Origin: an uncultured Kineosporia sp.
GTDB taxonomy: Bacteria > Actinomycetota > Actinomycetes > Actinomycetales > Kineosporiaceae
Assembly (NCBI GenBank): GCA_937859855.1
Contig: CALMAR010000349.1
Coordinates: 1-12,227, forward strand
DNA length: 12,227 bases
Reading direction: 5' to 3'
Made by a program: the position numbers and the translations under genes. Below are positions 492 to 11,011 of this stretch, one piece after another. Every line of letters starts with the position of its first letter. The first letter of the stretch is position 1. The notes under the pieces were generated by a model. The model ran no database searches. It saw only the letters and a list, made by a program, of their open reading frames with translations, and was not told the origin of the DNA.

Positions 492-1679
492 CTATCGGGA
501 CAGGACGCGCACGGCGTCCGGGGTGCACACGCACTGCACCTTCTGTCCCTCGATGAACCCGGACGAGCGTGGCCCGCCGTGGTTGGCCAGCTCGACCACC
601 AGCGGCACCTCGGCCGGTTCACCCACCGACAGCTGCGGCCGCAGGCCGACCCGCACGTGCGTGATCGCGCCCAGGTACACGACGTCCCGGACGACGCCGG
701 GCAGCACGTTGCAGCCGCGCGGCGCCGGTTCGCCGTCCACCAGCAGGGACACCCGCTCGGGCCGGAGCATCACCGCGGCACTGCCGGGACCGGGAGCCTC
801 GAACGAGGGGTCCAGCGCGGCGTCCACGGTGGTGCCGAGCACGGAGCAGGTGGCCACCGAGGAGGTCGCCGAGAGCACCTCGGCGTCGAAGATGTTGGCA
901 TTGCCCAGGAATCCGGCCACGTACCGGGTGGCGGGCGCGGAGTAGACCTGCTCCGGGGTGTCGACCTGCTCGATCCGGCCGTCGGCGAGGACGGCGATCC
1001 GGTCGCTCATCGTCAGCGCCTCCTCCTGGTCGTGGGTCACGTAGACGAACGTGATGCCCACCTCCCGCTGCAGGGAGCGCAGTTCCAGCTGGAGCTGCTT
1101 GCGCAGCTGCGCGTCCAGGGCACCGAGCGGCTCGTCCAGCAGCAGCACCCGGGGGTTCAGCACCAGTGCCCGGGCCAGCGCCACCCGCTGCTGCTGGCCG
1201 CCGGACAGCTGGCCCGGGCGGCGCTTCGCGAAACCGGCCATCCGGGTCAGTTCCAGGGCCCTGCCGACCCGCTCGTCGGTCTCCTGCCGCCCGGCCTTCT
1301 GGTAGCGCAGGCCGAAGGCGACGTTCTCCCGGACGTTCAGGTGCGGGAACAGCGCGTAGTTCTGGAAGACGGTGTTGACCGGACGCGCGTTCGGCGCGTC
1401 CTGGGCGACGTCCCGCCCGTCCAGCAGGATCTGACCGGCGTCCGGCCGCTCGAACCCGGCGATCATCCGCAGCGTGGTGGTCTTGCCGCAGCCGGAGGCG
1501 CCGAGCAGGGAGAAGAACTCGCCGGCGGCGATGTCCAGGTCGATGCCCTGCACGGCCGGGACCCCGTCGAACGCCTTGGTCAGCTTCGAGATCCGGATCG
1601 CCCCGCCGCCGGAGGCGGAGCCCGGCGTCGTACCCACCGCCAGCTGGAGCCGGTCGCCCCGCCTGACCTCGGCGCTCAT
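492..1679 (-). CDS. potA: Polyamine-type ABC transporter ATPase (PotA family)
   Basis: This is the cytoplasmic ATP-hydrolysing subunit of an importer for polyamines or related cationic amines; it would pair with the two permeases encoded at 4561-6352. Its 395 residues show all ABC motifs in order: Walker A GASGCGKTT (60-68), Q-loop glutamine 106 in VFQNYALFPH, signature LSGGQ (158-162), Walker B VLLLDE (178-183) and switch histidine 216 in THD. Residues from about 285 to 390 form the TOBE-like C-terminal domain typical of PotA/UgpC-type ATPases. Sequence similarity begins near residue 27, so the first 26 residues are a non-conserved extension. ATG 1679 is the last of seven iterated RTGA start/stop overlaps leading out of the aminotransferase gene. 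No separate ribosome binding site is visible, so expression probably depends on translational coupling. The substrate is inferred from family and context. Confidence 0.93.
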   Translation of the reverse strand: MSAEVRRGDRLQLAVGTTPGSASGGGAIRISKLTKAFDGVPAVQGIDLDIAAGEFFSLLGASGCGKTTTLRMIAGFERPDAGQILLDGRDVAQDAPNARPVNTVFQNYALFPHLNVRENVAFGLRYQKAGRQETDERVGRALELTRMAGFAKRRPGQLSGGQQQRVALARALVLNPRVLLLDEPLGALDAQLRKQLQLELRSLQREVGITFVYVTHDQEEALTMSDRIAVLADGRIEQVDTPEQVYSAPATRYVAGFLGNANIFDAEVLSATSSVATCSVLGTTVDAALDPSFEAPGPGSAAVMLRPERVSLLVDGEPAPRGCNVLPGVVRDVVYLGAITHVRVGLRPQLSVGEPAEVPLVVELANHGGPRSSGFIEGQKVQCVCTPDAVRVLSR

Positions 1680-1751
1680 CGGGCGCTCATCGGGCGCTCA
1701 CAGGACGGCGCTCATCGGGCGCTCACAGGACGGCGCTCACAGAACGCTCAT
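1671..1751 (-). repeat. Seven tandem RTGAGCGYY repeats at a gene junction
   Basis: On the minus strand the 9-mer RTGAGCGYY starts at 1751, 1740, 1726, 1715, 1701, 1690 and 1679. The steps are 11, 14, 11, 14, 11 and 11 nt. The 14-nt steps carry an extra GTCCT-type insert, giving two near-identical 25-nt units (1740-1716 and 1715-1691) that differ only in the first base (G or A). The last copy is the start of the ABC ATPase gene and the first overlaps the stop of the aminotransferase gene. The pattern fits tandem duplication or slippage of the ATPase start region. Confidence 0.92.
1676..1751 (-). other. Chain of six overlapping mini-ORFs (translational relay candidate)
   Basis: Every repeat copy opens a frame of four or five codons that ends on the next copy: 1751-1737 (MSVL), 1740-1723 (MSAVL), 1726-1712 (MSAR), 1715-1698 (MSAVL), 1701-1687 (MSAR) and 1690-1676 (MSAR). 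Each TGA overlaps the next ATG or GTG as RTGA. The aminotransferase TGA (1750-1748) overlaps the first ATG, and the last TGA overlaps the ATPase ATG. All seven junctions keep a 4-base overlap, and each step shifts frame. A ribosome ending the aminotransferase would have to terminate and restart seven times to reach the ATPase frame by this path. No Shine-Dalgarno sequence lies within the repeat. The peptides themselves are unlikely to matter. The overlaps are seen directly; the relay function is inferred. Confidence 0.6.
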
Positions 1752-3139
1752 GCGGCGATCTCGCCCGCGGCGACCTCGGCGGCGAGCCGGTCGAAGTTGG
1801 CCGCGAGCCGGTCCACGTCCGCCTCCTCGTGCTGTACCGACAGCAACCACTGCTCGACCTTTCCCCAGGGTGGCAGGAACACCCCGCCGTTGTGCTGGAC
1901 CAGCCAGTGCGCGTGCCCGAGCCGGGCGTCGACCTGCAGGAAGTGACGGTATTCGCGGACCGGCTCGGCACGGAAGGAGATGCACCCCTTCGCGCCGACG
2001 CCGACCACCCGCCAGGGGTGGCCGTACCGCTCGACCGTCGCCTCCAGGGCGGTCCGCAGCCGGTCCGCCAGGGCGTCCAGCCGGGCGTACCCGGCGTCCG
2101 TCAGCACCTCGGACAGCGTGGCCCGGGCGGCGGCCATCGCCAGCGGGTTGCCGTTGAAGGTGCCGACCTGCTCGTACCTGCCGTCGGCTATCGCCGCCAT
2201 CACGGTGCGCGTGCCGCCGATCGCGGCGGTCGAGATGCCGCCGCCCATCGCCTTGGCCAGGCAGACCAGGTCCGGCACCACCCCGTACCGGGCGGTGGCG
2301 CCGCCCGGCCCGGTGGTGAAGCCGGTCTTCACCTCGTCGAAGGTGAGCAGCGCGCCGTGCGCGTGCAGCAGCTCGCGCAGGCCGGCCAGGTAACCCGGGT
2401 CCGGCGGGATGATGCCGGCGTTCATCATCACCGGTTCCAGGATCATCCCGGCGACCCGCCCCCGGTGCTGCGCGAGCGCCCGCTGCACGGCGTCCAGATC
2501 GTTGAACGGCACGATCACCACGAGGTCGCGGATCGCCGCCGGGATGCCGCCGTTGCCCGGCACGCCGGTGGGGCGCTCGCGCGGGCCGATCTCCTCCGCC
2601 TCGGGCAGCACCGAGACCTGCACCGAGTCGTGGTGGCCGTGGTAGCAGCCCTCGACCTTGAGGATCAGGTCCCGCCCGGTCACGGCCCGCATCAGGTGCA
2701 CGGCGTCCATCGTCGCCTCGGTCCCGGAGTTGGCGAACCGCCAGAGCGGCAACCCGTAGCGGCGGCCCAGTTCGCGGGCCACCCAGATCGCGTCCTCTGA
2801 CGGCTGGGCGAAGTGGGTGCCGAGCCGGACCCGCCGGGACACCGCCTCGACGATCGCGGGGTGCGCGTGGCCGGCGATCGAGGCGCCGTAGCCGCCGTGC
2901 ATGTCGACGTACTCGGTGCCGTCCACGTCGTACACCTTCGAGCCAGCGCCGTGACTCATCCAGACCGCCTGTGGCAGGGCTATCTGCCAGTTGGACGTCG
3001 CGCCGCCGGCGAGCACGGACTCCGCCTCACGGATCAGCTCGGCGCTGCGAGGCTGCCGGGCCATGAAGGCGGCCTCCTCCCGCGCCACCAGGTCGTCGAG
3101 GAGCCTGTCCCGAGGGATTGCTGACATCGTGGAAACCAC
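1748..3139 (-). CDS. Class III PLP aminotransferase, glutamate-1-semialdehyde aminomutase-like
   Basis: This is a fold-type I, pyridoxal-phosphate enzyme of the class III aminotransferase family, closest in pattern to glutamate-1-semialdehyde 2,1-aminomutase. Visible marks are NSGTEA (137-142), the following GRDLILKVEGCYHGHHD stretch (155-171), DEV (268-270) for cofactor contact, and LAKAMGGG (294-301) with the likely Schiff-base lysine K296. At 463 residues it is about family length. The chosen start is GTG 3139, seven bases after GGAGG (3147-3151); ATG 3127, four codons later, is the alternative. The open frame continues upstream without a better signal. Linked to an amine importer rather than haem genes, it more likely removes an amino group from an imported amine or its product than makes 5-aminolevulinate. 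Its stop overlaps the first unit of the mini-ORF chain leading to the ATPase gene. Confidence 0.9.
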   Translation of the reverse strand: MVSTMSAIPRDRLLDDLVAREEAAFMARQPRSAELIREAESVLAGGATSNWQIALPQAVWMSHGAGSKVYDVDGTEYVDMHGGYGASIAGHAHPAIVEAVSRRVRLGTHFAQPSEDAIWVARELGRRYGLPLWRFANSGTEATMDAVHLMRAVTGRDLILKVEGCYHGHHDSVQVSVLPEAEEIGPRERPTGVPGNGGIPAAIRDLVVIVPFNDLDAVQRALAQHRGRVAGMILEPVMMNAGIIPPDPGYLAGLRELLHAHGALLTFDEVKTGFTTGPGGATARYGVVPDLVCLAKAMGGGISTAAIGGTRTVMAAIADGRYEQVGTFNGNPLAMAAARATLSEVLTDAGYARLDALADRLRTALEATVERYGHPWRVVGVGAKGCISFRAEPVREYRHFLQVDARLGHAHWLVQHNGGVFLPPWGKVEQWLLSVQHEEADVDRLAANFDRLAAEVAAGEIAA

Positions 3140-3146
3140 GCCGAAA

Positions 3147-3171
3147 CCTCCGTGCCGCAGCGATAATCGTA
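3147..3171 (-). promoter_or_regulatory. Ribosome binding site and possible -10 box of the aminotransferase gene
   Basis: GGAGG at 3151-3147, seven bases before GTG 3139, decides the start. TACGAT at 3171-3166 fits the actinobacterial TAnnnT -10 pattern and would give a short leader. No convincing -35 box is seen; its expected place abuts the inverted repeat at 3192-3219. On the plus strand GATAAT (3162-3167) is a comparable -10 candidate for the lipoprotein gene, also without a good -35. The promoter part is weak; the ribosome binding site is solid. Confidence 0.4.
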
Positions 3172-3191
3172 CCGAAATCGTGGCTGGAGAA

Positions 3192-3219
3192 TGCATTGAC
3201 TGAGCATTCAGTCTATGCA
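3192..3219. promoter_or_regulatory. 28-bp inverted repeat, likely operator in the divergent promoter region
   Basis: TGCATTGACTGA (3192-3203), four spacer bases GCAT, then TCAGTCTATGCA (3208-3219) form 12-bp arms with one mismatch (position 6). It stands in the 153-nt gap between the two divergent operons, about 50 bp from the aminotransferase start and 73 bp from the lipoprotein start. The core TTGACTGA...TCAGTC resembles sites bound by TetR-family dimers such as BetI-type regulators. A repressor here could control import and catabolic genes on both strands. The symmetry is seen; the regulator is inferred, and no regulator gene lies in the window. The rest of the gap holds GC-rich palindromes (GGCCTCGCGGCC at 3251-3262, GGGCCGGCCC at 3266-3275). 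Confidence 0.65.
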
Positions 3220-3292
3220 ACAGTCTGGACGCTCGACAAGCGCCGATCCAGGCCTCGCGGCCTCCGGGCCGGCCCGACCACCCGGGAGTCGA

Positions 3293-4561
3293 ATGTCGGT
3301 CCACAGGCGGCGACCCATTCCCCGCGGGCCGAGTCGCCGGTCCCTTCTGCAGGTCTCCGCCCTGATCGCGGCCGGGGTGCCGGTCTCGGCTGCGCTGGCC
3401 GCCTGCACCCGGCAGCCGACGTCCTCACCCAGCGCGGTGAAGAACCTGTCCGCGGCCTCGCCGCAGAACCCGGTGACCTGGCCGATCAACCCCGCCAACG
3501 CGCCGATCGCGGACAACCTGACCCCGGAGCGCGACGCCACCCTGCGGCTGTACAACTACGCCGACTACATCGACCCGGCGGCGATCAAGTCGTTCGAGAA
3601 GAAGTACGCCAAGTACAACGTCAAGGTCCGGCTGTCCACCTTCAACGACAACGACGAGGCGCTGACCAAGGTCCGGCAGGGTTCCGTGCCCTTCGACATC
3701 TGGATCGGCGGCGGCTACGACTTCACCTCCAGGCTGGTCGCCGGCCAGCTGATCCGGCCGCTCAACCACACCTACATCCCGAACATCGCGAACGTCTGGC
3801 CGACGTTCAGCAACCCCTGGTACGACCGGGGCTGGCGGTACACCGTGCCGTACACCGTGTACACCACGGGTATCGGCTGGCGGCACGACCAGGTGAAGAC
3901 CGACATCGCCGGCCTGCCGAACCCCTACGACGCGCTCTGGGACCCGAAGTACCGCGGCCGGACGGCGGTCCTGGACGACTACCGGTCGACCATCGAGATG
4001 TGCCTGCTGCGCGCCGGCATCACCGACGTGAACACCGACAAGCCCGCCGACCTGGCGAAGGCGCAGCAGCAACTGCAGGCGCTGGCCAAGAGCGTCGCCC
4101 CGAAGGTGACGATCACGATGTACCAGGCGCTGCCGGCCGGCGACTTCGGCCAGTGCGCGATGTGGTCCGGGGACATCGTCAATGCCGTGTACTACCTGCC
4201 GAAAAAGACGCCGGCATCGGTGCTCGACTACTGGTACCCGGCCGACGGCAAGGGCATGATCGACAACGATCTGCTGGTGGTGCTCAAGGGCGGGCACAAC
4301 CCGGTGCTGTCCCATCTGTTCCTGAACCACATGCTCGACCTCAAGGTGGCGAAGGGAAACTTCGGCGCCACCGGCTACCAGCCGCCGCAGACCGCCCTGG
4401 ACATCGACAGCCTGGTCGAGGACGGCTACCTCCCGAAGAACCTGTCGGCGGCAGTGGTCAAGGAGCAGTACTTCACCGACGGCTACCCGGGGCTGGCGCT
4501 CAGCGTGGCCAACGACGCCGCCTGGCACAAGATCTGGCTGGCGTTCAAGGCCGGGAGCTGA
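3293..4561 (+). CDS. potD: Tat-exported lipoprotein, polyamine-binding (PotD/PotF family)
   Basis: This is the extracellular substrate-binding lipoprotein that delivers an amine to the permeases encoded just downstream. From ATG 3293 (422 residues) it has a twin-arginine signal (SRRSLL, 14-19), a hydrophobic core and a lipobox LAAC with C38 as the lipidated residue. So it folds in the cytoplasm, leaves by the Tat route and is anchored in the membrane. The mature part shows PotD-like blocks: LRLYNYADYIDPA (84-96), VPFDIWIGGGYDF (132-144) and YTVPYTVYTTGIGW (183-196). GGGAG (3284-3288) lies four bases before ATG. The frame stays open back to 3215, but that extension would place 26 residues before the Tat signal. 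The TGA overlaps the next ATG by one base. Cationic-amine binding is inferred from family; betaine-like ligands are possible. Confidence 0.93.
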   Translation: MSVHRRRPIPRGPSRRSLLQVSALIAAGVPVSAALAACTRQPTSSPSAVKNLSAASPQNPVTWPINPANAPIADNLTPERDATLRLYNYADYIDPAAIKSFEKKYAKYNVKVRLSTFNDNDEALTKVRQGSVPFDIWIGGGYDFTSRLVAGQLIRPLNHTYIPNIANVWPTFSNPWYDRGWRYTVPYTVYTTGIGWRHDQVKTDIAGLPNPYDALWDPKYRGRTAVLDDYRSTIEMCLLRAGITDVNTDKPADLAKAQQQLQALAKSVAPKVTITMYQALPAGDFGQCAMWSGDIVNAVYYLPKKTPASVLDYWYPADGKGMIDNDLLVVLKGGHNPVLSHLFLNHMLDLKVAKGNFGATGYQPPQTALDIDSLVEDGYLPKNLSAAVVKEQYFTDGYPGLALSVANDAAWHKIWLAFKAGS

Positions 4562-5472
4562 TGCTCCGCCCGGCGCCGCGCGCGCGTCGTGCGGGCGCCG
4601 GCGTCTGGCGGCTGTTCGCACTGCCCGGGCTCGCCTGGCTGGCACTGTTCTTCATCGCCCCGATGTACATCGTGCTGGCCATCACGTTCGGCCAGGTGGA
4701 CCCGATCTTCCGCACCGCGGTGCCCGTGTTCAACCCGCTGGACTGGGACTTCAGCCAGTTCACCGCCGTGCTCGGGCAGACCCTGGGGCGGCACGCGGTG
4801 TTCGGCCCGGCGCTGCTGCGCACCGTGGTCTTCGTCCTGCTGTCCAGCCTGGGCTGCCTGCTGATCGCATTCCCGGTGGCGTACTACGTGTCCCGGCTGG
4901 CCGGGCGCCGGCGCGGGCCGCTGCTGGCCCTGCTGATCGCGCCGTTCTGGATCAGCTACATGATGCGCATGCTGGCCTGGGTCAACCTGCTCGCGGACGA
5001 CGGGCTGGTGAACCGGGTGCTCAGCCTGGACGGGCACCTCGGTCTGCACCCGAACTGGCTGAACGGCAACGGCCTGGTCGTCGTCCTCGGTCTGGTCTAC
5101 GGGTACGTGCCGTACATGATCCTGCCGCTGTACGCCGGCCTCGACCGGCTGCCGCAGTCGGTGCTGGAGGCCGCCCGGGATCTCGGCGCCGACCGCGGCT
5201 CGGCGTTCTGGCGGGTCACCCTGCCGATGTGCCGCCCGACGATCGTGGCCGGTGTGCTGCTCACCTGCCTGCCGATGCTCGGTGACTACTACACCAACGA
5301 CCTGCTGTCCGCCTCGCCCCGCACGTCGATGGTCGGCAACCTGATCAACGACACCGTGCTGATCCCGGGTCAGACCGGCGCTGCCGGAGCCTATGTGCTG
5401 CTGGTGCTCGTGATCTCCCTGCTGCCGATGCTCTTCTACGTGCGCAGCGTCTCCGCCGAGGTCCGCTCGTGA
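4561..5472 (+). CDS. potB: ABC transporter permease 1 (PotB type)
   Basis: This is an inner-membrane permease, half of the channel through which the importer moves its amine. The 303-residue protein has about six membrane segments (near 18-42, 84-109, 120-143, 170-192, 226-248 and 276-295). The cytoplasmic EAA loop that docks on the ATPase is LEAARDLGADRG...LP (202-222), with its conserved Gly at 209. It begins at ATG 4561 on the last base of the lipoprotein stop (TGATG), with GGGAG a few bases upstream, so translation is coupled. Its TGA (5470-5472) overlaps a GTG that opens a short frame leading into the second permease. As in other polyamine systems the ATPase partner is encoded elsewhere in the locus, here on the opposite strand. 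Confidence 0.93.
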   Translation: MLRPAPRARRAGAGVWRLFALPGLAWLALFFIAPMYIVLAITFGQVDPIFRTAVPVFNPLDWDFSQFTAVLGQTLGRHAVFGPALLRTVVFVLLSSLGCLLIAFPVAYYVSRLAGRRRGPLLALLIAPFWISYMMRMLAWVNLLADDGLVNRVLSLDGHLGLHPNWLNGNGLVVVLGLVYGYVPYMILPLYAGLDRLPQSVLEAARDLGADRGSAFWRVTLPMCRPTIVAGVLLTCLPMLGDYYTNDLLSASPRTSMVGNLINDTVLIPGQTGAAGAYVLLVLVISLLPMLFYVRSVSAEVRS

Positions 5473-5483
5473 CGGCGTCGTGA
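5469..5483 (+). other. Mini-ORF bridging the two permease genes
   Basis: GTG 5469 overlaps the first permease stop as GTGA. It reads four codons (MTAS) and stops at TGA 5481-5483, which overlaps the GTG start of the second permease (5480), again as GTGA. The step is 11 nt, the same as in the mini-ORF chain at 1676-1751. It may hand terminating ribosomes on to the second permease; a chance product of short spacing is the alternative. Confidence 0.4.
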
Positions 5484-6352
5484 GGAGCTGGTGGTCCAAC
5501 CCGTGGCGGAAGCCGCGGGTCCTGGCCGCGATCACCCTCGGCTACCTGGCCTGGTCCCTGCTGCCGGTGCTGATCGCCGTCCTGTTCTCGTTCAACGCCG
5601 GGCGTTCCCGCACGGTCTGGCAGGGCTTCTCGATGCGCTGGTACACCGGCGACGCGACCCGGTCGGTCTGGCACGACGCCTCGCTGCACGCCGCGCTGCT
5701 GCAGACGCTCAAGCTGGGTCTGATCACCACCCTGGTGACCGTGCCGCTGGGGGTGGCCTTCGCGATCGGGATGGACCGCTGGCGCGGCCCCCTGCCGCAG
5801 TCGGCGAACGTGGTCATGCTGTTGTCCTTCGTGATCCCGGAGACGCTGCTGGCGGTGGCCCTGCTCTTCCTGGTCAGCACCATCGCGCTGCCGTTCGCGC
5901 TGGGCACGACGGCGCAGGTGGTGGGCCTGGTGACGTTCCAGATCTCCTACCCGGCGGTGATCGTGCGGGCCCGGCTGGCCACGATCGGGCGGCAGTACGA
6001 GGAGGCGGCCCGCGATCTGGGCGCCACCGCCCTGGGGGCGCTGCGCCGGGTGCTCCTGCCGATGCTGGCACCCGCCGTCCTGGCCAGCACCGTGCTGGTG
6101 TTCGCCGACGTGATCGACGACTTCGTGATCGTCCGGTACCTGTCCGGCGACGCCTCGACCGAGCCGGTGTCGGTGAAGATCTACAACTCGGCCCGGGCGG
6201 CGCCGACGCCGGCGCTGAACGCGATGGCGTCTCTGCTGCTGCTCGCCGCACTGCTGGCGGTGCTGCTCGGTTTCGCCGTGTACCGGCGGCTGACCCGCGG
6301 CGACGACACCCAGGCCGACCGCAGCATCGGCGCCTTCGCCGGCGAGCTCTGA
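5480..6352 (+). CDS. potC: ABC transporter permease 2 (PotC type)
   Basis: This is the second inner-membrane permease, which should pair with the first to form the transport channel. At 290 residues it has about six hydrophobic segments (near 13-38, 72-97, 108-132, 140-163, 197-216 and 247-267). The EAA loop YEEAARDLGATALG...LLP (173-194) contacts the ATPase. The GTG start at 5480 is the only usual start near the expected N-terminus, and the protein opens MRSWWSNPWRKPRVLA, a basic segment before the first helix. There is no strong separate ribosome binding site; the gene seems coupled to the first permease through the 11-nt mini-ORF. The gene ends 93 nt before the oxygenase gene, which has its own promoter. 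Confidence 0.92.
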   Translation: MRSWWSNPWRKPRVLAAITLGYLAWSLLPVLIAVLFSFNAGRSRTVWQGFSMRWYTGDATRSVWHDASLHAALLQTLKLGLITTLVTVPLGVAFAIGMDRWRGPLPQSANVVMLLSFVIPETLLAVALLFLVSTIALPFALGTTAQVVGLVTFQISYPAVIVRARLATIGRQYEEAARDLGATALGALRRVLLPMLAPAVLASTVLVFADVIDDFVIVRYLSGDASTEPVSVKIYNSARAAPTPALNAMASLLLLAALLAVLLGFAVYRRLTRGDDTQADRSIGAFAGEL

Positions 6353-6445: not shown

Positions 6446-7684
6446 ATGTTCAATCAGCTTGCCGGCACGCCCGCGCCCGTCCCCGCAGAGGGCCTCGCCG
6501 ACTCGCTCGCGGACTTCGGCCGGTCCCGGTTGCTGCCCCCGCAGGCCTACACCGACCCGGCCGTGTTCGCCTGGGAGCAGGCCAACATCTTCGCCGGCTG
6601 GACCTGTGTCGGGCACGCCGCCGACCTGCCCGACGTCGGCTCGCAGCGGCCGGTGCGGACCGGTGCCGGCGGCGTCCTGCTGGTGCGGGGCGAGGACGAC
6701 CGGATCCGGGCCTTCGCCAACACCTGCCGGCACCGGGGCCATGAGCTGCTGCAGTGCGGGACGACGGCCAAGCGGCACAGCATCGTCTGCCCGTACCACT
6801 CGTGGTCGTACAAGCTCGACGGCTCGCTGCGCAACGCGCCCGGCTTCCGCGGCGTCGACGGCTTCGAGGAGGACCGGCACGGCCTGACCGAGCTGAGGCT
6901 GGTCAGCTGGCACGGCTGGCTGTTCGTCGACCCGGGCGGGCAGGCCGGCGACTTCGCCGAGCAGGTGGCAGGTTTCGCCGACGTGATCGGGCCGTACAAC
7001 CCCGCCGAACTCACGGTCGTGACCCGGCACTCCTACGAGCTGGCAGCCAACTGGAAGGTCATCGTCGAGAACTACCAGGAGTGCTACCACTGCTCGACCA
7101 TCCATCCCGAGCTGAGCCGGATCTCGCCACCGACCAGCGGGGAGAACCTGGTGGTGCAGGGAGCGTGGATCGGCGGCTGGATGGACCTGATCCCCGAGGC
7201 CGAGACCATGTCGCTGGACGGCCGCAGCGGCGGGGTCGCGCTGAGCGGCCTGTCCCAGCACGAGTTGCGGACCGTGATGTACATCGTCGGCTACCCCAAC
7301 CTGCTGGTCAGCCTGCACCCGGACTACGTGATGACGCACCTGATGACGCCGCTGGCCGCCGACCGCACGCTGGTCGAGTGCGCCTGGGCCTTCTCCCCCG
7401 AGGCCTCGGCGAAGCCGGGTTTCGACCCCTCGTACGCGGTGGACTTCTGGGACCTCACCAACCGGCAGGACTGGGCCGCGTGCGAGTCGGTGCAGCGCGG
7501 GCTCAGCTCGCCGCACGCGATCGCCGGGCCGCTGGCTCCCGACGAGGACGGCGTCTACCAGTTCGTCACCCGGGTCGCCCGCGCCTACCTCGGCGAACCC
7601 CCTCGGGAGACGGGCGGATCGATGGCGGCCGGGGCGGCACGGCAGGAGACCAGGCAGGCCCGCTGGGAAGGGGCGCAGTCATGA
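6446..7684 (+). CDS. Rieske non-heme iron oxygenase, quaternary-ammonium type
   Basis: This is the oxygenase alpha subunit of a Rieske system: electrons pass from the [2Fe-2S] cluster to a mononuclear iron that activates O2. From ATG 6446 it has 412 residues. The Rieske ligands are CRH (C94, H96) and CPYH (C115, H118). The iron site lies in NWKVIVENYQECYHCSTIH (202-220), with H215 and H220 as ligands and E212 where ring-hydroxylating enzymes usually have Asp. That Glu is known from the carnitine oxygenase CntA and related glycine betaine and stachydrine oxygenases. The third iron ligand is probably an Asp near 333-342. With a neighbouring amine importer, N-demethylation or C-N cleavage of a quaternary or cationic amine is the best guess, not aromatic hydroxylation. 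The partner reductase is not in the window. The start is supported by a -10 box seven bases upstream. The stop overlaps the next gene (ATGA). Confidence 0.88.
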   Translation: MFNQLAGTPAPVPAEGLADSLADFGRSRLLPPQAYTDPAVFAWEQANIFAGWTCVGHAADLPDVGSQRPVRTGAGGVLLVRGEDDRIRAFANTCRHRGHELLQCGTTAKRHSIVCPYHSWSYKLDGSLRNAPGFRGVDGFEEDRHGLTELRLVSWHGWLFVDPGGQAGDFAEQVAGFADVIGPYNPAELTVVTRHSYELAANWKVIVENYQECYHCSTIHPELSRISPPTSGENLVVQGAWIGGWMDLIPEAETMSLDGRSGGVALSGLSQHELRTVMYIVGYPNLLVSLHPDYVMTHLMTPLAADRTLVECAWAFSPEASAKPGFDPSYAVDFWDLTNRQDWAACESVQRGLSSPHAIAGPLAPDEDGVYQFVTRVARAYLGEPPRETGGSMAAGAARQETRQARWEGAQS

Positions 7685-9325: not shown

Positions 9326-11011
9326 TCAGGCCTCGATCACCAGAGGGATGATCATCGGACGGCGGCGGTAGGACTCGTTCACCCAGCGGCCGACCACGCG
9401 CCGGACCACCTGCTGCAGCTGGTGGGTGTCCGCCGGGCCCTGGTTGGCGGCGTCCCGCAGCGCGTCCACGATTCGCGGGCGCACCGCGTCGAAGGCCGAC
9501 TCGGTCTCGGCGAACCCGCGCGCGTGGATCTCCGGTCCGGCCACGACCTTCCCGCTGGCGGAGTCGACCACGACGATGATCGAGATGAACCCCTCCTCGC
9601 CGAGGATCCGCCGGTCCTTCAGGTCGGCGTCGGTGATCTCCCCCACGCTGGACCCGTCCACGTAGACGTAGCCGCACGGCACCTTGCCGACCACCCGGGC
9701 GACGCCGCCGGCGAGGTCGACCACGACGCCGTCCTCCGCGATCACCACCCGTTGCCGGGGCACGCCGGTCTTGATCGCCAGCTCCGCGTTGGCCACCAGG
9801 TGCCGCGCCTCGCCGTGCACCGGCATCACGTTGCGCGGCCGGACCACGTTGTAGCAGTAGAGCAACTCCCCCGCGCTGGCATGCCCGGACACGTGCACCC
9901 GGGCATTGCCCTGATGCACCACCTTGGCGCCGAGCCGGGTCAGGCCGTTGATCACGCGGTACACCGAGTTCTCGTTGCCCGGGATCAGCGAGGAGGCCAG
10001 CACCACCGTGTCCCCGGCGCCGACCAGGACCCGGTGGTCGCGGTTGGCCATCCTGGACAGTGCCGCCATCGGCTCGCCCTGCGATCCCGTGCACATCAGC
10101 ACGACCCGGTCGTCCGGCAGGTCGTCCACGGCCTTCGCGTCGACCAGCACGTTGCGCGGCACGGTGAGGTAGCCGAGATCCCGGGCGATGCCCATGTTGC
10201 GCACCATCGAGCGACCGACGAGTGCCACCTTGCGGCCGTGGTCGTGCGCGGCGTCCAGCACCTGCTGCACGCGGTGCACGTGGGAGGCGAAGGACGCGAC
10301 GATGATCCGGCGCTCGGCGGCGGCGAACACGGAGTCCAGGACGGGCCTGATGTCACGCTCGGAGACGGTGAAACCCGGGACCTCGGCGTTGGTCGAGTCG
10401 ACCATGAAAAGGTCGACGCCGGCCTCGCCCAGCCGGGCGAAGGCGCGCAGGTCGGTGATCCGCCCGTCCATCGGCAGCTGGTCCATCTTGAAGTCGCCGG
10501 TGTGCAGGACCGTGCCGGCGCTGGTGGAGACGGCGACCGCGAGCGCGTCCGGGATCGAGTGGTTGACCGCCACGAACTCGCAGCCGAACGGCCCCAACTG
10601 CTCCCGGCCGCCCTCCTTCACGGCCAGCGTGATCGGGGTGATCCGGTGCTCCTTCAGCTTGGCCTCGACCAGGGCCAGGGTCAGCTGCGACCCGATCAGC
10701 GGGATGTCCTGCTTCAGCCGCAGCAGGTACGGGACCGCGCCGATGTGATCCTCGTGGCCGTGGGTCAGGATCACCGCGACGACGTCGTCCAGCCGGCCCG
10801 CGATGTAGGAGAAGTCCGGCAGGATCAGGTCGACGCCGGGCTGGTGGTCCTCGGGGAACAGCACCCCGCAGTCGATCACCAGCAGCTTGCCTGCGTGCTC
10901 CAGGACGGCCATGTTGCGGCCGACCTCGCCGAGCCCTCCCAACGGCACGATCCGCAGCGCGTCCCGGGCCAGACCTGGCGGCGTCCCCAGCTCGGGGTGC
11001 GACTGACTCAA
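9326..11011 (-). CDS. rnj: Ribonuclease J
   Basis: RNase J is a zinc-dependent ribonuclease of the metallo-beta-lactamase/beta-CASP family. It acts in the cytoplasm as a 5' exonuclease and endonuclease in mRNA decay and rRNA maturation. The 561-residue protein has the usual length. Zinc ligands are visible in HGHEDH (84-89), at H151 and D173, and in the PVHGE block (H399). The beta-CASP region holds DSTNAEVPGF (205-214), ASFASHVHR (239-247), GRSMVRNMG (266-274) and CTGSQGEP (307-314). HVSGHASAGE (373-382) and the C-terminal domain to 561 follow. The start is the rare TTG at 11011, which overlaps the DapA stop as TTGA; AGGAGG lies ten bases upstream. It is co-transcribed with dapA, an order common in actinobacteria. 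Confidence 0.97.
   Translation of the reverse strand: MSQSHPELGTPPGLARDALRIVPLGGLGEVGRNMAVLEHAGKLLVIDCGVLFPEDHQPGVDLILPDFSYIAGRLDDVVAVILTHGHEDHIGAVPYLLRLKQDIPLIGSQLTLALVEAKLKEHRITPITLAVKEGGREQLGPFGCEFVAVNHSIPDALAVAVSTSAGTVLHTGDFKMDQLPMDGRITDLRAFARLGEAGVDLFMVDSTNAEVPGFTVSERDIRPVLDSVFAAAERRIIVASFASHVHRVQQVLDAAHDHGRKVALVGRSMVRNMGIARDLGYLTVPRNVLVDAKAVDDLPDDRVVLMCTGSQGEPMAALSRMANRDHRVLVGAGDTVVLASSLIPGNENSVYRVINGLTRLGAKVVHQGNARVHVSGHASAGELLYCYNVVRPRNVMPVHGEARHLVANAELAIKTGVPRQRVVIAEDGVVVDLAGGVARVVGKVPCGYVYVDGSSVGEITDADLKDRRILGEEGFISIIVVVDSASGKVVAGPEIHARGFAETESAFDAVRPRIVDALRDAANQGPADTHQLQQVVRRVVGRWVNESYRRRPMIIPLVIEA

Follow-up and report, generated by a model that had tools for sequence, protein, structure and literature searches.

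The stop codon of an aminotransferase gene and the start codon of an ABC transporter ATPase gene are linked, on the minus strand of the window (the whole stretch of DNA that was analysed, 12,227 nucleotides), by a chain of seven RTGA overlaps enclosing six mini-ORFs. We read this array as a minisatellite that grew at an ordinary ATGA overlap and that serves as a length-tolerant spacer, keeping coupling between the two genes as copy number drifts, and we give this reading a probability of roughly 0.64. Four elements of it are supported directly: the anatomy of the array, its recurrence, a phase bias in the arrays examined, and the single-overlap orthologues of two other expanded borders.

Anatomy of the aminotransferase/ATPase junction

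The relay runs along the minus strand from 1751 to 1676, as read from the sequence and its ORFs. Its RTGA tetramers lie at 1751, 1740, 1726, 1715, 1701, 1690 and 1679 (plus-strand coordinates), with spacings of 11, 14, 11, 14, 11 and 11 nt, and each combines a stop with the next start; the first is the aminotransferase stop (TGA 1750-1748) and the last is the ATPase start. The six mini-ORFs have 4-5 codons each, all end in TGA, and encode, in order and with the first residue as encoded, MSVL, VSAVL, VSAR, MSAVL, VSAR and MSAR. The two full genes stand 68 nt apart. The features of the junction are as follows.

1748..3127, minus strand: class III PLP aminotransferase (glutamate-1-semialdehyde-aminomutase-like); PF00202, E 5e-62
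1737..1751, minus strand: mini-ORF 1, ATG AGC GTT CTG TGA; start overlaps the aminotransferase stop as ATGA
1723..1740, minus strand: mini-ORF 2, GTG AGC GCC GTC CTG TGA
1712..1726, minus strand: mini-ORF 3, GTG AGC GCC CGA TGA
1698..1715, minus strand: mini-ORF 4, ATG AGC GCC GTC CTG TGA
1687..1701, minus strand: mini-ORF 5, GTG AGC GCC CGA TGA
1676..1690, minus strand: mini-ORF 6, ATG AGC GCC CGA TGA; stop overlaps the ATPase start as ATGA
1682..1739, minus strand: 25-nt higher-order tandem repeat (11 + 14 nt), 2.3 copies, 100% match (TRF)
492..1679, minus strand: ABC transporter ATPase, polyamine PotA-like, start ATG 1679; TIGR01187 potA, PF00005, PF08402

The earlier note had described this structure (seven 4-base overlaps, six nested frames, 11/14-nt spacing) and had held it to be free of internal ribosome-binding sites. 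Sequence and ORFs confirm the former; the latter agrees with our finding of no Shine-Dalgarno match at any relay step (best duplex -1.9 to -3.8 kcal/mol). Four overlapping TRF rows, the perfect 25-nt repeat among them, cover 1671-1750 in head-to-tail copies, as in a minisatellite or VNTR. The longest RTGA chain in the window is seven on the minus strand and two on the plus strand; 1000 dinucleotide shuffles of the window gave a longest chain of one to four RTGA in 997 cases and of five in three, and since no shuffle exceeded five, a chance origin of the seven-RTGA chain is unlikely. Scans of 1600-3400 returned no terminators and no sigma-70-like promoters (a scan with the sigma-70 consensus only, which covers actinobacterial promoters poorly). 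Strong RNA structure at the junction was also considered, and rejected because folding was no greater than in shuffles (z 0.50).

That the array might be an error of assembly or sequencing is a thought invited by its setting, as the window is a metagenome contig, and one we regard as extremely improbable: at 80 nt the array fits in one read, its units vary, two contigs have records of the encoded proteins, and a similar array is present in the complete chromosome of Nocardioides ungokensis (L082).

The flanking genes belong to a polyamine-type ABC cluster that is split between the strands: the plus strand carries the genes for the solute-binding protein and both permeases, the minus strand that for the aminotransferase and, after it, that for the ATPase. 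The ATPase exceeds the TIGR01187 potA cut-off (376.7 bits against 355.6), the aminotransferase matches PRK00062 and hemL below their cut-offs, and the closest other protein to the aminotransferase stands at 91%. GC by codon position is 0.71/0.67/0.96 in the first 24 codons of the ATPase and 0.74/0.46/0.95 in the remainder; third-position GC is thus high from the first codons, which makes this segment coding-like at position 3 and less so at position 2. The split cluster holds a second, shorter relay:

5469..5483, plus strand: one-step relay between permease 1 and permease 2 (ORFs 4561-5472 and 5480-6352), GTGA to GTGA, 11 nt

Here the stop of permease 1 (TGA 5470-5472) overlaps the four-codon frame GTG ACG GCG TCG TGA, whose own stop overlaps the start of the second permease (GTG 5480). 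Other overlaps in the window are an ATGA between the Rieske oxygenase and FAD oxidoreductase genes (7681-7684, plus strand), a TTGA between dapA and the RNase J gene (11008-11011, minus strand), and a TGATG between the binding-protein and first permease genes (4559-4563). The RNase J of the window shares 91% identity with its counterpart in Spongisporangium articulatum and 84-89% with those of several Kineosporia, which points to a probable origin of the DNA in a Kineosporiaceae-like actinobacterium.

Repeat length and phase in RTGA arrays

When a unit bearing RTGA undergoes duplication and has a length of 2 mod 3, the frame opened by the start in one copy closes at the TGA of the following copy. 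Both 11 and 14 nt are 2 mod 3, so every overlap is kept, and the higher-order unit of 25 nt (11 + 14) adds two links per copy. A unit length of 0 mod 3 produces instead an in-frame extension of the downstream protein, and one of 1 mod 3 breaks the chain unless units are paired, the relay then proceeding in two-unit steps. The earlier note was therefore right that an 11-nt duplication of this start creates such frames automatically, which holds for any 2 mod 3 unit. Because duplication alone yields the relay form, the question becomes whether phase matters. The note's further suggestion, that slippage alone could explain the form, holds in that duplication yields it and falls short in that the avoidance of chain-breaking lengths in border arrays is left unexplained.

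A probe of four RTGA at 11-nt spacing matched in 2 of the 10 genomes that contain relatives; in both, one ORF ends at the array's first TGA and another begins at its last RTG. The survey sample comprised 197 Actinomycetes genomes and one probe genome (that of L082, in the period-11 set). Arrays occurred, among the 197, in 14 genomes at period 10, 26 at period 11, 99 at period 12, 24 at period 13, 62 at period 14, 33 at period 16 and 39 at period 17; a reversed-pattern control at period 11 matched in 6 of the 197 genomes, against 26 for the pattern itself (counted by eye). We scored an array as lying at a border when its first TGA closes one ORF and its last RTG opens another, both with coding-like GC by position, gene calls in the fetched loci being based on ORFs and the GC-by-codon-position test, not on annotation. 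The GC test had two versions, taken over the whole ORF or over the nearest 300 nt, and the final figures use the latter (L093 and L109 are borders by the whole-ORF test only, L097 by the nearest-300-nt test only). Every listed place was classified for periods 10, 11 and 13, the period-14 set held 92 arrays among the matches listed, and for periods 17 and 16 the arrays in 30 fetched loci each were classified (32 and 24 arrays).

Among the matches listed, 18 of the 124 arrays of periods 11 and 14 lie at borders, compared with 0 of the 55 of periods 10 and 13 (p 0.0019); the difference is weaker when the sole requirement is that a downstream coding ORF start at the last RTG (32/124 versus 6/55, p 0.029). 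An excess of period 17 over period 16 at borders was written down as a prediction before counting, and the counts were 4/32 versus 0/24 (p 0.13, not significant alone), with the first TGA ending a coding ORF in 11/32 versus 1/24 (p 0.008). For periods 11, 14 and 17 together against 10, 13 and 16, again among the matches listed, borders number 22/156 versus 0/79 (Fisher p=8.5e-5, in a test that treats arrays as independent although several share a genome, namely G155, G018 and G025), and the first TGA ends a coding ORF in 51/156 versus 2/79 (p 1.3e-8). An exclusion rule absent from the advance prediction removed six half-period (8-nt) arrays of the period-16 loci; with these six included, the border counts among the matches listed become 22/156 versus 1/85 (p 4.6e-4), and with L082, which lies outside the 197 genomes, omitted the p value is 1.5e-4. 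A looser rule, under which a coding stop and a coding start may fall anywhere within the array, gives 26/156 versus 2/79 among the matches listed (p 0.0011). The two 1 mod 3 cases under this rule are L120, an ordinary short gap, and L240, the sole period-13 array with coding ORFs on both sides, which has six units from stop to start and an intact relay in 26-nt steps. By the nearest-300-nt test, period-11/14 borders are present in at least 15 of the 197 genomes.

One of the six half-period arrays, L422, is itself a relay: its 8-nt unit GTGACGGA, repeated seven times, gives a complete chain of three-codon frames from one coding ORF to another. G037:C4:44504-44699 is a very long array of the 8-nt unit GTGAGCCT, in a genome with 51 period-16 matches counted. 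Period-12 arrays were considered as a neutral control and dropped as uninformative, since 99 of the 197 genomes match and 15 of the 30 arrays classified fall within an antisense coding ORF. Four of the 30 start from a gene stop, and three of these four are borders with in-frame extension, where phase is tolerated for another reason.

Many phased arrays show no target gene. Twenty-nine period-14 arrays, among the matches listed, start at the stop of a coding ORF; 10 of these reach a coding ORF at the last RTG, five have a coding ORF only 38-167 nt beyond it, and 14 have no downstream coding sense ORF within about 400 nt, four of the 14 leading into a frame that is either long or truncated where the stretch or contig ends. 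The phase bias of these targetless arrays falls outside the relay explanation, unless downstream genes have been lost or were missed. Loci with an exact coding-stop origin at period 14 and no downstream sense gene found are L195, L201, L267, L268, L281, L282, L285, L291, L294 and L298. Several other relays (for example, L082, L107, L270 and L287) have Shine-Dalgarno-like units, so that fresh initiation could replace a relay there.

Window-like TGAGCGCC arrays occur in 2 of 396 genomes of the phylum, G199 and G614. In G199, around which the genus search covered G199 alone, four ATGA with the identical unit ATGAGCGCCCG stand before a glycosyltransferase-28 gene (MurG-like by eye) at a contig end; in G614 a 193-codon open frame stops at CTGA and is followed by three GTGA, the last of which opens a 161-codon frame. 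Neither of these two arrays from the 396 genomes lies at the window's own border.

The border in relatives and expansion elsewhere

For the window's border, the best 80 of 270 loci were fetched, and 59 of the 80 have the ATPase next. The earlier note had proposed comparing this junction in related strains for repeat number and for conservation of the RTGA overlaps. Repeat number is not conserved: in this best-80-of-270 sample the 11/14-nt array is present in 0 of the 59 syntenic loci, and an unbroken RTGA chain into the ATPase is absent from 49, indicating that coupling by the RTGA route is not required at this border. Within the same sample, a direct RTGA overlap into the ATPase is found in four of the 59 (L005, L008, L057 and L062) and a one-step relay of 6-10 codons in five (L016, L021, L022, L029 and L069), and the Nocardioides MAG L061 has an independent two-step relay made of two tandem units of 59 nt, each of which is a frame of 20 codons containing AGGAGG.

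The relatives bear on the possibility that the array is a neutral, untranslated bystander and that the ATPase starts independently, from its own mRNA, leaderless, or by direct entry, whether at ATG 1679 or at a GTG further in (1637, for example). Conservation is lacking over roughly the first 23 ATPase residues, and relatives often have their nearest in-frame start two codons ahead of the position that matches residue 25; together with the 49 chainless loci, these observations speak for such independence. A phase bias at borders is not, however, expected of untranslated repeats, the scan of 1600-3400 (sigma-70 consensus only) found no promoter-like site, and third-position GC is high from ATG 1679 onward; on balance we consider a bystander array unlikely.

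The earlier note suggested an attenuator, in which a share of ribosomes fails to restart at each step and repeat number would set the ratio of ATPase to aminotransferase. In a selected form of this idea the share is fixed and repeat number has been tuned to give a low ratio. Seven restarts without a Shine-Dalgarno match should cost some ribosomes, a yield effect at each relay step is plausible, and chain length does vary at this border across lineages (zero, one or two mini-ORFs, compared with six here). Against selection for a set dose, the absence of the array from all 59 syntenic relatives (best 80 of 270) means that any dose set in this way is not conserved; relays also join genes of other functions, and related genomes do not agree in copy number. 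We therefore regard a selected attenuator as quite improbable. Under the spacer reading, a lowering of ATPase yield by the array may be a side effect, and nothing shows that it is used.

Differences in copy number between related genomes are seen at two other borders. At the Nocardioides phosphatase/fructosamine-kinase border (PF01451, PF03881), for which loci came from 30 of the 58 matching genomes, G155 is the sole expanded locus of the 30, with three extra 11-nt units; in 20 of the 29 other loci an ORF ends at a single RTGA overlap, and a relative 85% identical to G155 has a single ATGA. For the permease/permease border (both PF00528) in the genus of G142, 61 large genomes were searched and 30 loci fetched; 12 of the 30 have a single ATGA, two have one extra 14-nt unit, G142 has six, and the remaining 14 are arranged differently. 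In L336 four in-frame 12-nt units extend the permease start at this border, the outcome expected of a 0 mod 3 unit. Repeat number thus varies between related genomes and the single overlap is common at both borders, which favors slippage combined with tolerance.

Proposed coupling through the array, and known counterparts

On the spacer reading, the ancestral junction would have been one ATGA stop-start overlap, which slippage or tandem duplication would then have expanded. A ribosome finishing the aminotransferase would terminate, reinitiate at seven successive 4-nt overlaps and so reach the start of the ATPase; the array would grow and shrink by slippage with coupling maintained, lengths that keep the stop-start coupling would persist, and some yield would probably be lost at each link, possibly leaving less ATPase. 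Coupling in six native gene pairs goes from strongly reduced to almost nothing at distances of 20-38 nt, and the last 15 nt of the upstream gene suffice for coupling (PMC10666635, as far as its available text goes). Given this published loss with distance, the ATPase, lying across a 68-nt gap without a Shine-Dalgarno sequence, would probably be uncoupled; a chain of 4-nt overlaps need not be.

The available text of PMC10666635 also cites a study with reinitiation across a 73-nt gap, so that a relay may not be needed. A ribosome could then slide from the aminotransferase stop directly to ATG 1679 and leave the mini-ORFs untranslated. We judge such scanning very unlikely in view of the strong loss of coupling at 14-38 nt in the native pairs of the same source; moreover, six starts at ideal distance lie in between, and phase would not matter to a sliding ribosome. 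One published point counts against the relay itself, in that very short frames can lose peptidyl-tRNA (PMC8708949, in the part available). A wider version of the coupling idea would make relays from phase-locked minisatellites a general, unnamed class of actinobacterial coupling element, in which ribosomes hop across six or more frames of 3-9 codons, the chain survives any change in copy number, and copy number is a heritable, slippage-adjusted dial on the ratio of neighboring proteins; we hold this to be a tentative and rather doubtful extension.

The closest known system is the MIRU (mycobacterial interspersed repetitive unit), reportedly described by Supply et al. in 1997 and covered in a 2025 review (PMC12548453). 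MIRU units are about 53-101 bp long and have a family sequence, and the lengths 53, 77 and 101 bp are all 2 mod 3. MIRUs are short, apparently mobile repeats that insert at start codons, and an internal ORF coupled to the gene with -4 spacing likely lets the insertion affect the gene little (PMC12548453, in its available portion). The likeness lies in a short repeat at a start codon with an ORF that overlaps its neighbor at -4 spacing. The differences are that the units here are 11/14 nt, not about 53-101 bp, a comparison made by length only, and that other borders carry arrays of different sequence with the look of local duplications, whereas MIRUs are called mobile in the available portion of PMC12548453; the array is not classed as a MIRU.

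Three further systems share single features with the array. Each link is an ordinary ATGA or GTGA overlap, as in termination-reinitiation at 4-nt overlaps (PMC6728339, PMC10666635), where one link joins two full genes; here six mini-ORFs lie between. Regulation by minigenes, as in axe-txe (PMC8708949), likewise involves frames of a few codons before a gene that affect its translation in cis, but the two leader minigenes there have Shine-Dalgarno sequences and the repeats here are chained to the stop of the upstream gene. Bacterial VNTRs and minisatellites resemble the array in their short tandem units; they also change in copy number, as the repeats between the two permease genes do in the genus of G142. 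Known phase-variable repeats act by switching a frame or the spacing of a promoter; here, by contrast, any whole number of units keeps the chain. Among the matches listed in a search of the open-licence literature (titles and starts of abstracts), we found no micro-relays of this kind. We know of no measurement of whether a ribosome can restart serially, many times over, after termination where no ribosome-binding site is present.

Orthologous borders whose natural chains differ in length offer a ready series for testing serial reinitiation, and in evolutionary terms the phase bias signals that coupling of stop to start is of consequence at some actinobacterial borders. Should yield change with copy number, bacteria would possess a dial, driven by slippage, for setting the ratios of proteins within an operon. 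At such borders gene callers may also place starts wrongly.

Two minor observations concern the proteins compared. The ATPase N-terminus has an apparent in-frame insertion that includes GQERSD (by eye) in the Mycobacterium loci L031 and L038, and in L031 it contains a unit of about 36 nt twice. The protein search also returned an RNase J relative of 802 residues (P0124), compared with the usual 561, possibly a fusion with a neighbor.
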